From: an uncultured Clostridia bacterium
GTDB taxonomy: Bacteria > Bacillota_A > Clostridia > Christensenellales > Aristaeellaceae
Assembly (NCBI GenBank): GCA_946613955.1
Contig: CAMOGC010000103.1
Span: 1-5,836 of the forward strand
DNA: 5,836 bases
Direction: 5' to 3'
Under the pieces are notes generated by a model. The model searched no databases and was not told where the DNA came from. It saw nothing but the letters and a program-made list of their open reading frames with translations. The number at the start of each line of letters is the position of its first letter. The first letter of the stretch is position 1. The translations under genes and the position numbers were made by a program. Of the stretch, positions 496 to 5,502 are shown piece after piece.

Positions 496-1293
496 TTACA
501 CCTCTCTAAAATACTGCACCGCCGCCTCGAACATGCGGCTGTCATAGTTCCCCGGCACGTTCCGATACAGGCCCCGGCCCGTGCGCTCGCTGTGGCCCAT
601 CTTGCCGAAGACCCGGCCGTCCGGGCTGGTAATGCCCTCGACGGCGAAGAGCGAGCCGTTGGGGTTGAAGTCGATATCCATCGTGGCCTCGCCCCGCTCG
701 TCCACATACTGGGTGGCGATCTGGCCGTTTTCCGCCAGGCGGCGGATCAGCTTCTCCTCCGCCAGGAACCGGCCCTCGCCGTGGCTGATCGGCACGCTGT
801 AGACCTCCCCGACCCGGCACAGGCGCAGGAAGGGGCTCTTGACGCTGGCGATCCGGGTACGGACGACGCGGCTCTGGTGGCGCCCGATGGTGTTGAAGGT
901 CAGGGTCGGGGCGTCCTCGGCCGGATCGGTGATCCTTCCGTAGGGCACCAGCCCCAGCTTGATCAGCGCCTGGAAGCCGTTGCAGATGCCGAGCATCAGG
1001 CCGCCGCGCTTCTCCAGCAGGGCCATCGTTTCCGCCTTCACGTCCGCGCCCCGGAAGAAGGCGGTAATCAGCTTGCCGGAGCCGTCCGGCTCGTCGCCGC
1101 CGGAGAAGCCGCCGGGCAGGAAAACCATCTGGGCCTGGCGCAGCTCCTGGGCGAAGCGCTCGGCGCTTTCGGCGATGTCGGCGGCGTTCCGGTTCCGGAT
1201 GACGAAGATCCGGGCCTCGGCCCCCGCCCGCTCCACCGCGCGGGCGCTGTCATATTCGCAGTTGGTGCCCGGGAAAACCGGGATCAGGATTCG
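496..1293 (-). other. purL: Glutamine amidotransferase (PurQ-like, class I) domain of the fusion, residues 1404-1668
   Basis: This domain releases ammonia from glutamine for the synthetase site. It begins RILIPVFPGTNCEYDSA (1404-1420) and contains FLPGGFSGGDEPDGSGK (1461-1477). The nucleophile is C1507 in MLGICNGFQAL (1503-1513). H1637 and E1639 in GKMGHSERTG (1633-1642) complete the triad, matching the HPE motif of Salmonella PurL with Ser in place of Pro. ISHGEGRF (1572-1579) is also conserved. The domain ends with the gene's stop codon and appears complete. Confidence 0.94.
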
Positions 1294-4200: not shown

Positions 4201-5502
4201 GCCGGGCTTTTTTTCGACATAGATCCGCCGCACGGAGGAGGAGATCGCCTTCAGCGCCCGGCGGCCGATATCCCGGCGGAAATATTTCGTCTCAAAATCG
4301 ATCGTGTCGCCCAGGGCGTAGGCCTCCTTTACGGCCTCGGGCAGGCTGTCCGCCACGGCCGTCACGCCCAGCACCCTGCCGCCGGAGGTCACCAGTTTTC
4401 CGTCCTTTTCCGCCGCGCCGGCCACGAACACATGGGGCCAGGTTTTTTCCGGAATCCGGATCTCCGCGCCCTTCTCATAGGCCTCGGGATAGCCCTTCGA
4501 CGCCAGCACCAGGCAGCAGGCCGCGCCCTCGCGGAAGCGGACCTCCGTATCCTTCAGCCGGCCCTCGGTCACCGCCCGCATCGTCTCCAGCAGGTCGCTT
4601 TCCATCAGCGGCAGCACCACCTGCGTCTCCGGATCCCCGAAGCGGCAGTTGTATTCGATGACCTTCGGGCCCTCCCGGGTGATCATCAGGCCGAAATACA
4701 GGCAGCCCCGGAACTCCCGGCCCTCCGCCTTCATGGCCCGGATCGTCGGCAGGAAGATCCGCTCCATGCAGGTCTTCGCCACCTCCGGGGTATAATAGGG
4801 GTTGGGCGCGACGGTGCCCATGCCGCCGGTGTTCAGGCCGGTATCCCCGTCCCCGGCGCGCTTGTGGTCCATGCTGGAGACCATGGGAACCACCGTTTCC
4901 CCGTCCGTAAAGGCCAGCACCGAAACCTCCGGCCCCTCGAGGAATTCCTCGATGACGACGCGGCTTCCGCTGTCGCCGAATTTCTTTTCGGTCATCATGG
5001 CCCGGACGGCGTCCCTGGCCTCCTGGCGGGTAAAGGCGATGATGACGCCCTTGCCCAGGGCCAGGCCGTCCGCCTTGACGACGGCGGGCAGCGGGGCGGT
5101 TTCCACGTAGCTCAGGGCCGCCGCCGGGTCGTCAAACACCCGGCAGGCCGCCGTGGGGATGCCGTAGCGCGCCATCAGATCCTTGGCGAAAACCTTGCTG
5201 CTTTCGATCATCGCCGCCCGCTGCCGGGGGCCGAAGCAGGGAATGCCTTCCGCCTCCAGGGCGTCCACGCAGCCCAGGGCCAGCGGATCGTCCGGGGTCA
5301 CGACGGCGTAGTCGATCCCCTGTTCTTTCGCGAAGGCCGTGATGGCCGGGATGTCCTTCGCCCCGATGGGCACGCAGACCGCGTCCCGGGCGATGCCGCC
5401 GTTGCCCGGCAGGGCGTAGATCGTCTCCGCCGCCGGATTTTCCTTCAGCTTCCTGATGATCGCGTGCTCGCGGCCTCCGCCGCCGATGACCATGATTTTC
5501 AT
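496..5502 (-). CDS. purD-purL: Fused phosphoribosylamine--glycine ligase / phosphoribosylformylglycinamidine synthase (PurD-PurL), 1668 aa
   Basis: One uninterrupted frame encodes two complete purine enzymes. Residues 1-417 are GAR synthetase (phosphoribosylamine + glycine + ATP to GAR, step 2). Residues 424-1668 are single-chain FGAM synthase (FGAR + glutamine + ATP to FGAM, step 4). Stand-alone PurD is about 420 residues and the clostridial/streptococcal long PurL about 1240, so neither half is truncated and they meet with a linker of about six residues. I chose the ATG at 5502 because GGAGG lies six bases upstream and the MKIMVIGGGGREHAI start is that of PurD. The frame stays open for 30 more codons, but these lie inside the purH end and resemble nothing. 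The stop is TAA (498-496), overlapping an fhs ATG. The gene lies 13 bases after purH. Key motifs of both enzymes are intact, so both are expected to work. The product should be cytoplasmic; no signal peptide or membrane segment is seen. I do not recall this fusion as a common one. Confidence 0.95.
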   Translation of the reverse strand: MKIMVIGGGGREHAIIRKLKENPAAETIYALPGNGGIARDAVCVPIGAKDIPAITAFAKEQGIDYAVVTPDDPLALGCVDALEAEGIPCFGPRQRAAMIESSKVFAKDLMARYGIPTAACRVFDDPAAALSYVETAPLPAVVKADGLALGKGVIIAFTRQEARDAVRAMMTEKKFGDSGSRVVIEEFLEGPEVSVLAFTDGETVVPMVSSMDHKRAGDGDTGLNTGGMGTVAPNPYYTPEVAKTCMERIFLPTIRAMKAEGREFRGCLYFGLMITREGPKVIEYNCRFGDPETQVVLPLMESDLLETMRAVTEGRLKDTEVRFREGAACCLVLASKGYPEAYEKGAEIRIPEKTWPHVFVAGAAEKDGKLVTSGGRVLGVTAVADSLPEAVKEAYALGDTIDFETKYFRRDIGRRALKAISSSVRRIYVEKKPGLDQEAEALRREAVEFLGLKGLKKVRLLNRYDTEGLSEALFAAAAGTVFSEPPVDDTYAEPDFDGAAAVFAVEYLPGQFDQRADSAAQCVQMLSGGERPLIRSAKVYALYGELSPEETAAFRRHVINPVEAREAAMEKPATLRTDYAVPTEVAVLDGFRQLDRAGLEKLVSEMGLAMDGDDIAFCQRYFRDEGRDPTITEIRMLDTYWSDHCRHTTFLTRIDSAAFADPLCEKAWEEYLAARRELGRTAPVCLMDVATVGARYLKKKGLLPRLDESEEINACTVKIEIERDGVKEPWLLLFKNETHNHPTEIEPFGGAATCIGGAIRDPLSGRAYVYGAMRVTGAGDPTAPVSETIPGKLPQRKLVTTAAAGYSSYGNQIGLATGIVDELYHPGYAAKRLEIGAVIAAAPAENVRRERPAPGDVVILLGGRTGRDGIGGATGSSKAHNVHSVETCGAEVQKGNAPEERKLQRLFRDPAATRLIKRCNDFGAGGVSVAIGELADGLEIDLNAVPKKYDGLDGTELAISESQERMAVVVAPEDRDAFLALAAAENLEATPVAVVREEPRLVMKWNGKKIVDISRAFLNANGAEKHIDIRVPAGARAKAEPVSSLAEACRRMGSLALCSRRGLSERFDSTIGAGTVLMPFGGKNQLTPIQAMAHRLPLAKGETEDCSLMAWGFNPALSEKSPYRGAYLAVVESVCKLIATGAAFEDVYLTFQEYFEKPGKDPERWGQPLAALLGAFRAQMDLGIAAIGGKDSMSGSFENLDVPPTLVSFAVTMGKIGEIVSPEFKAAGHPVILLSPEKDENGLPKPESLKKTLALAHSLTSSGRAVSASALGVGGALAAVIRACLGNGLGFTFDGNLNEKDLEALWDYAEGSLILEMAEETDIGVRLGTVTAPEGGEAFLRLGGESVGLSGVARGYLYGGLETVYPIRDAAARKNPEADFRTETFSAPAPESWPRPAAAAAKPRILIPVFPGTNCEYDSARAVERAGAEARIFVIRNRNAADIAESAERFAQELRQAQMVFLPGGFSGGDEPDGSGKLITAFFRGADVKAETMALLEKRGGLMLGICNGFQALIKLGLVPYGRITDPAEDAPTLTFNTIGRHQSRVVRTRIASVKSPFLRLCRVGEVYSVPISHGEGRFLAEEKLIRRLAENGQIATQYVDERGEATMDIDFNPNGSLFAVEGITSPDGRVFGKMGHSERTGRGLYRNVPGNYDSRMFEAAVQYFREV
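499..506 (-). promoter_or_regulatory. Ribosome-binding site of fhs, inside the last codons of purL
   Basis: GAGAGGTG lies in the codons for the last residues (REV) of the fusion. The end of AGAGG is 4 bases from the ATG at 496 and 7 bases from the ATG at 493. The better spacing supports the second ATG. The overlap with the purL end and its TAA stop points to translational coupling. Confidence 0.7.
1294..1347 (-). other. Ala/Pro-rich interdomain linker in PurL, residues 1386-1403
   Basis: Residues 1386-1403 are rich in Ala and Pro with no conserved motif. They lie between the second AIRS-type half and the amidotransferase domain, and probably form a flexible tether where other bacteria have a break between separate PurL and PurQ proteins. 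Confidence 0.6.
1348..4233 (-). other. purL: PurL synthetase part of the fusion (PurS-like domain, linker domain, two AIRS-type halves), residues 424-1385
   Basis: Residues 424 to about 505, starting VRRIYVEKKPG, match the PurS-like N-terminal domain of long PurL. A linker domain follows with the FGAM synthase signature LDTYWSDHCRHTTF (637-650), whose H647 probably corresponds to the catalytic histidine of Salmonella PurL. The first AIRS-type half has FKNETHNHPTEIEPFGGAA (734-752), GRTGRDGIGGATGSS (863-877) and DFGAGGVSVAIGEL (921-934). The second half has FGGKNQLTP (1080-1088) and AIGGKDSMSGSF (1186-1197). This layout is the single-chain form, so separate PurS and PurQ subunits should not be needed. 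Confidence 0.93.
4234..4251 (-). other. PurD/PurL fusion junction, residues 418-423 (KAISSS)
   Basis: Six codons separate the usual PurD end (RRDIGRRAL) from the usual PurL start (VRRIYVEKKP). There is no stop codon and no ATG: no methionine codon occurs between residues 309 and 524. The codon after KA is ATC followed by three Ser codons. Stand-alone clostridial PurL proteins, as I recall them, begin M-S-S-V-R-R, so this ATC may mark the lost start. The mRNA just before it is C/T-rich (CTCCTCC), with no GGAGG-like site for separate initiation. Confidence 0.8.
4252..5502 (-). other. purD: PurD (GAR synthetase, ATP-grasp) domain of the fusion, residues 1-417
   Basis: The N-terminal nucleotide-binding fold opens with GGGGREHAI (7-15). 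The ATP-grasp part shows VVKADGLALGKGV (141-153), IEEFLEGPEVSV (184-195), DHKRAGDGDTGLNTGGMGT (212-230) and VIEYNCRFGDPETQVVLP (281-298). By family knowledge, E283 and N285 in the last block are the Mg/ATP ligands. The C-terminal subdomain AACCLVLASKGYPEAY (327-342) leads to the usual end of PurD, FRRDIGRRAL (408-417). Nothing typical of a stand-alone PurD is missing except its stop codon. Confidence 0.95.

Follow-up and report, generated by a model that had tools for sequence, protein, structure and literature searches.

Animal GART combines PurD, PurM and PurN in a single polypeptide, and yeast ADE5,7 combines PurD with PurM. Here we describe a gene from an uncultured Clostridia bacterium, carried on a 5,836-nucleotide stretch (contig CAMOGC010000103.1; the whole stretch is called the window below), in which PurD, the glycinamide ribonucleotide (GAR) synthetase of step 2 of purine synthesis, is joined in frame to PurL, the formylglycinamidine ribonucleotide (FGAM) synthase of step 4. 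Like GART and ADE5,7, the gene places PurD within a multifunctional purine enzyme; unlike these, it pairs PurD with FGAM synthase rather than with PurM (step 5) or PurN (step 3). Profiles PF00551, TIGR00878 and TIGR00639 revealed no PurM or PurN on the chain at an E value of 0.001, and the AIRS domains of the protein are part of PurL, which bears out the contrast with GART and ADE5,7 drawn in an earlier interpretation of the stretch from its letters alone (the sequence-only reading).

Fusions of purD and purL have been reported before. The accessible text of PMC3890548 (2014) names them in Clostridium botulinum BKT105925 (as spelled there; CbC4_1757) and Clostridium novyi NT (NT01CX_2418), where they were found because purD seemed to be missing, and states that the calls agree with MetaCyc, RAST and SEED. 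The arrangement in the window is therefore not new, and the suggestion of the sequence-only reading that it was undescribed was wrong. As described in that text, the two Clostridium proteins resemble the window protein in having purD homology at the N terminus of a much larger, purL-containing protein of a Clostridia purine pathway; they belong to another genus, and the likeness is drawn at the level of description. The available portions of two reviews (PMC3261824 and PMC10912719) describe other arrangements, and no report of a PurD-PurL fusion beyond PMC3890548 was found in the literature searched, PMC12583656 and PMC5976638 included, which was mostly open-access text without supplements. 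New beside the accessible account in PMC3890548 are the wide spread of the fusion through one Clostridia family and its seemingly repeated origin elsewhere, amid many unfused tandem relatives.

A single open frame encodes complete PurD and PurL

The gene lies on the minus strand (window positions 496-5502) and forms a single open frame of 1668 codons, with PurD first and PurL second, that runs from an ATG at 5502 to a TAA stop codon at 498-496. The PurD module (residues 1-417; 4252-5502) comprises the Pfam domains GARS_N, GARS_A and GARS_C and scores 517.7 bits against TIGR00877 (NCBI cut-off, 288). The PurL module (residues 425-1668; 499-4230) matches the single-chain FGAM synthase profile TIGR01857 over its entire length (profile positions 1-1239 of 1239; residues 425-1665) with 1748.1 bits (cut-off, 1057.05), and contains the FGAR-AT linker, AIRS_C and GATase_5 domains, the last being the glutaminase domain at residues 1402-1665 (508-1299; PF13507, 265.1 bits). 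The in-frame fusion of steps 2 and 4 over 1668 codons, as first proposed from the letters, is thus confirmed by the open frame and by two profiles above their cut-offs.

The claim that the active-site motifs of both enzymes are intact also held. The PurD motif R[LF]GDPEx[EQIM] (PS00184; this form is given in the accessible part of PMC3261824) is present as RFGDPETQ at residues 287-294. In PurL, KNETHNHPT, GGKDSMSG, GICNGFQ and SHGEGRF begin at residues 735, 1188, 1505 and 1573, respectively. Cys1507, His1574 and Glu1576, which we take to be the Cys-His-Glu triad of the glutaminase, are invariant across 16 aligned proteins.

Relatives of solved structure, identified by sequence, were GAR synthetases over approximately residues 1-421 and FGAM synthases from approximately residue 596 onward. 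An AlphaFold model of residues 1-720 was confident inside the modules (mean predicted local distance difference test score, 91.7) and had a predicted TM-score (pTM) of 0.70; at the joint, it placed a helix at residues 414-421 followed by the PurL strand at 425-431. In a Foldseek search, GAR synthetases matched the PurD half with a TM-score of 0.96 by target, and no FGAM synthase appeared among the 50 matches listed, all of which correspond to the PurD half or to ATP-grasp relatives.

We conclude that the window very probably encodes a bifunctional purine enzyme derived by fusion of two neighboring genes of a purine operon. This reading draws on the single frame, the completeness of both modules, the replaced purL start and weak ribosome-binding signal at the joint, the tandem arrangement in relatives, and the presence of fused forms on several tree branches.

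Distribution of the fusion

A search for PurD and FGAM synthase on one chain, which the sequence-only reading had proposed, proved productive. At least 14 database clusters of PurD-PurL type were identified among the matches listed (P0002, P0004-P0009, P0011-P0014, P0016, P0023 and P0103, the last a partial cluster with its N terminus cut); the search with the PurD part was restricted to long proteins, and 120 of 556 matches were listed. The possibility that these database fusions are stop codons read as residues was discarded, as neither W nor X occurs at the junctions.

A class-wide search of 391 genomes surfaced G1064 and G1211 as fused. Within the Clostridia family of G1064, a match spans the junction in 57 of 130 genomes, by hand count among the matches listed, and one open frame was confirmed on the DNA in at least 55 of the 130; G1421, where the contig is short and the match stops at residue 815, is counted in the 57 and not in the 55. 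Levyella massiliensis (L063, in G442) belongs to this family yet is unfused, with the two genes in tandem (L212). In another genome, G1444, the gene is fused but its frame is broken (L286), which was seen in this one genome. The 297 loci collected reduce to 289 distinct ones by purL DNA, which divide into 189 where the genes adjoin without forming one open frame (L286 among them), 55 that are fused, all from the G1064 family, 44 without purD in the stretch, and 1 in which the genes are not adjacent.

The G1064-family proteins are like that of the window in module order, PurL type (TIGR01857, 1512 bits in locus L204) and purine operon setting; they differ in sharing 38-47% identity per module with it, in occupying a separate tree branch, and in having almost no linker at the join (mostly DIGPxVxRVYV). 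A proline is kept at this nearly linkerless joint, which reads mostly DIGP and, in a few cases, DIAP or DISP. Overall, linker length varies from almost none in this family to about 7 residues in the window and about 100 in P0023.

Genomes of near relatives carry purD and purL in tandem, with no fusion among the matches listed; a PurD-PurL open frame was absent from the best 80 loci of species genomes, and searches of 8, 300, 29, 102, 12, 246 and 347 relatives' genomes gave no full-length stop-free match among the matches listed, with the provisos that the searches overlap, some genomes recurring, and that weak matches of the G1064 type may fall outside those listed. The expectation that species genomes close to the window would commonly carry the fusion was thus not borne out among those matches. 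A search by way of the family of G1317 (71 genomes) for the type described in C. novyi likewise gave no stop-free full-length match among the matches listed. Long open-frame values were considered as candidate fusions and rejected: all 20 rows checked on the DNA were tandem genes read through stops, and L115, L164, L168, L170, L206 and L282 were likewise tandem.

The junction and the former purL start

The junction comprises about 7 linker residues (418-424, KAISSSV; 4231-4251) and contains neither a stop codon nor an ATG. Near relatives mostly have an ATG, GTG or TTG a short way past the purD stop, ahead of V-[YF]-R-[IV] or a similar motif. The corresponding codons of the window are GCG ATC TCC TCC TCC GTG: the stop is gone, the old purL start position is occupied by TCC, and the GTG that follows, codon 424, is the sole ATG, GTG or TTG found in a scan of the joint region. 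None of the 15 fused proteins that were aligned and have a junction, the window protein among them, carries methionine at the former start position (P0010, which lacks the junction, was left out).

Translation signals at the joint are weak. The Shine-Dalgarno (SD) duplex at GTG424 was calculated at −4.7 kcal/mol, compared with −9.5 kcal/mol at the purD start of the window. Among 162 separate pairs, the median at purL was −8.55 kcal/mol, with 92% at or below −5; among 22 fused loci, it was −3.15 kcal/mol, with 23% at or below −5. A joint in which the stop is lost, the start replaced and the SD weak is, as judged from the nucleotide sequence, what would be expected of a settled fusion.

That the open frame instead reflects a sequencing or assembly error, in which a stop/start pair was lost from what are really two genes, is highly improbable. 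Such an error would agree with the presence of a stop at this place in near relatives, since the genera of L013 and L014 have 0 of 29 and 0 of 102 genomes, respectively, with a full-length stop-free match among those listed. A lost stop alone, however, would leave both the start methionine and the SD in place, and in the window the former is replaced and the latter weak. A second fused sequence, the database protein P0002 (8 members), differs from the window protein at 14 of 1668 positions and has an identical junction; fused forms are present in P0004 and other sequences as well, and are spread widely through one family. The stop/start pair in close relatives, named in the sequence-only reading as a sign against a fusion, is literally present there; it does not stand as a refutation, as the relatives' stop/start pair, taken together with the start-codon and SD evidence, argues that the fusion is derived and not an error.

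It is also unlikely that the locus yields two products, the whole frame being translated and a separate PurL being started internally at GTG424. This codon adjoins the old start position, and some fused relatives retain a start there, but its SD duplex is weaker than the −5 kcal/mol reached by 92% of the 162 separate purL genes, and the bases immediately 5′ of it, CTCCTCCTCC, match the complement of an SD sequence instead of an SD sequence itself.

Several points weigh against a settled fusion with a single product. An ATG is kept at the old purL start in 8 of the 55 fused loci, and two fused genes (L205 and L223) retain a GTG there with a strong SD (−10.7 kcal/mol), from which, to judge by these signals, PurL might still be produced on its own; independent initiation of PurL could likewise occur, at a low level, at GTG424 of the window. 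The p value for the SD contrast between separate and fused loci (1.8e-9) is overstated, because the sequences are related and start codons were assigned by a simple rule, and the other counts, too, include related sequences that are not independent. As to the error reading, P0002 may come from a source that is not independent of the window's.

Number of origins

A PurL tree of 244 rows calls for 11 changes of state between fused and unfused, 9 of them forced by well-supported branches; a PurD tree of 196 rows gave 11 changes, 8 of them forced, and a 40-row concatenated IQ-TREE analysis gave 8 changes between fused and unfused states, all forced. These figures count switches and not their direction. 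The 44 rows that have no purD in their stretch, some of them at contig ends, were scored as unfused. The 244-row tree was built without loci of short PurL match or identical PurL and without the one non-adjacent locus; P0010 (981 residues, with an internal gap) was dropped from all trees and the partial P0103 from the 40-row tree. The placement of P0012 and P0016, which have long branches, is unsure.

In approximately unbiased (AU) tests, a single clade of all 17 fused rows was rejected (p-AU 0.0004), as was a clade joining P0006-P0009 to the window pair (p 0.017); these tests are weakened by the groups having been named after the first tree was seen. A clade of the window pair with P0004 was not rejected (p 0.142), and on these sequences the window fusion may share its origin with P0004.

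Because at least 8 switches are seen on the trees and a single clade is rejected, the PurD-PurL fusion probably recurs, the several switches being most simply read as several fusions. One ancient fusion that was split again many times is quite unlikely. It would accord with the similarity of fused and separate forms in gene order and PurL type and with trees that do not give the direction of switching; the AU tests, too, reject one clade and not a gain with repeated loss as such. Against it, both the set of all 17 fused rows and the window pair with P0006-P0009 fail to form one clade in those tests, and every split would require a new stop, a new start and a new SD. Fused rows outside the G1064 family are moreover scattered as single twigs or small clades amid separate ones, and the linkers are unlike one another. 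The natural set of fused and unfused forms makes testable whether joining steps 2 and 4 brings a benefit or merely reflects close operon packing.

Operon setting

The fused gene is preceded by a GGAGG ribosome-binding site (5509-5513, minus strand) just 5′ of the ATG, to which the duplex energy of −9.5 kcal/mol with the anti-SD refers. Upstream, also on the minus strand, lies the 3′ end of a gene for a monofunctional 5-aminoimidazole-4-carboxamide ribonucleotide (AICAR) transformylase of the PRK07106 type (5516-5836; 106 residues), which matches positions 285-390 of 390 of NF005492 with 146.4 bits, a score below the whole-protein cut-off since the gene is cut by the window edge. Downstream on the same strand is the 5′ end of fhs, encoding formate-tetrahydrofolate ligase (2-496; PF01268, 267.9 bits), the first ATG of which overlaps the purL stop (TAATG).

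Tandem loci L013, L014 and L001 share the upstream AICAR transformylase and 68-77% identity per module with the window, and L013 and L014 also have fhs downstream; in all three, unlike in the window, a stop and a start separate the two genes. Across the 144 loci whose flanks are long enough, a set that includes fused loci and places retrieved twice, an AICAR transformylase lies within 400 nucleotides upstream in 115, and fhs within 3 kb downstream in 29, many stretches being too short to show fhs. Separate purD-purL pairs with an identified start (n = 187) have a median spacing of 12 nucleotides, and 118 are spaced by 20 or fewer, 16 of these overlapping. The two genes share a frame in 121 of the 187, a proportion inflated because loci were partly picked for being in the same frame.

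The order in L001 is purF, purM, purN, a frame of 239 amino acids, AICAR transformylase, purD and purL, with the purF call (166 bits) below its cut-off of 350; in the fused locus L204 it is purC-purF-purM-purN-purH-purDL-purB, which differs from the window in having a bifunctional PurH upstream and purB downstream. Step 3 is thus assigned to a separate PurN gene nearby in both L001 and L204, and the window is too short to show PurN. The 239-amino-acid frame of L001 (8000-8719), between purN and the AICAR transformylase, has no NCBIfam match at 1e-30; because the transformylase is monofunctional, this frame is perhaps the missing inosine monophosphate cyclohydrolase.

Proposed origin and function

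Ancestrally, purD and purL would have been tandem genes, joined by loss of the purD stop codon together with a short spacer, so that a single ribosome-binding site would now drive both enzymes at 1:1. The PurD half would make GAR, a separate PurN would formylate it, and the PurL half would turn the resulting formylglycinamide ribonucleotide (FGAR) into FGAM, with the two sites acting independently. The gain, if any, would lie in coordinated expression and equal amounts rather than in direct channeling.

An alternative, along the lines of the clustered pathway complex suggested in the sequence-only reading, is a channeling scaffold, in which PurD and PurL hold PurN between them, GAR being passed out and FGAR taken back. 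The apparent recurrence of the fusion (at least 8 switches) is a hint of selection, and in Escherichia coli, PurD and PurN fall with PurM, PurT and PurK into one weak interaction cluster by split yellow fluorescent protein (PMC12583656, main text). PurL, however, has no occurrence in the main text of that paper, operon adjacency alone also predicts recurrence, and there is no confident fixed arrangement of the modules in the AlphaFold model of residues 1-720, because its pTM is 0.70. We consider such a scaffold rather unlikely, and see an equally slim chance that the fusion is convergent in Clostridia, reached many times, because linking the enzymes of steps 2 and 4, with PurN able to dock between them, benefits flux or stability; were this true, PurD-PurL would form the core of a bacterial purine metabolon. 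In the annotation of such genomes, a purD that seems to be missing may be a fusion, as in the cases given in the accessible text of PMC3890548.

Other PurD fusions

Seven further database proteins (P0018, P0145, P0032, P0035, P0037, P0166 and P0189) resemble the window protein in that a single chain has PurD as well as FGAM synthase domains; they differ in that their PurL is of the small type, with no GATase_5 listed (P0018 is partial). Of these, P0018 bears the name Diapherotrites and P0145 that of Patescibacteria; an additional PfkB-type domain is present in P0032 and P0037. PurD was also found with phosphoribosyltransferase, glutaminase and PfkB domains in P0137 and P0155, a combination suggestive of a PurF-PurD fusion of steps 1 and 2, and with PurH domains (PF02142 and PF01808) in P0015 and P0078. 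In P0017, PurD shares a chain with a carboxypeptidase-type domain (PF02074), and in four Fusarium oxysporum proteins (P0122, P0125, P0126 and P0129) with a pyridoxal phosphate-dependent domain (PF00291).

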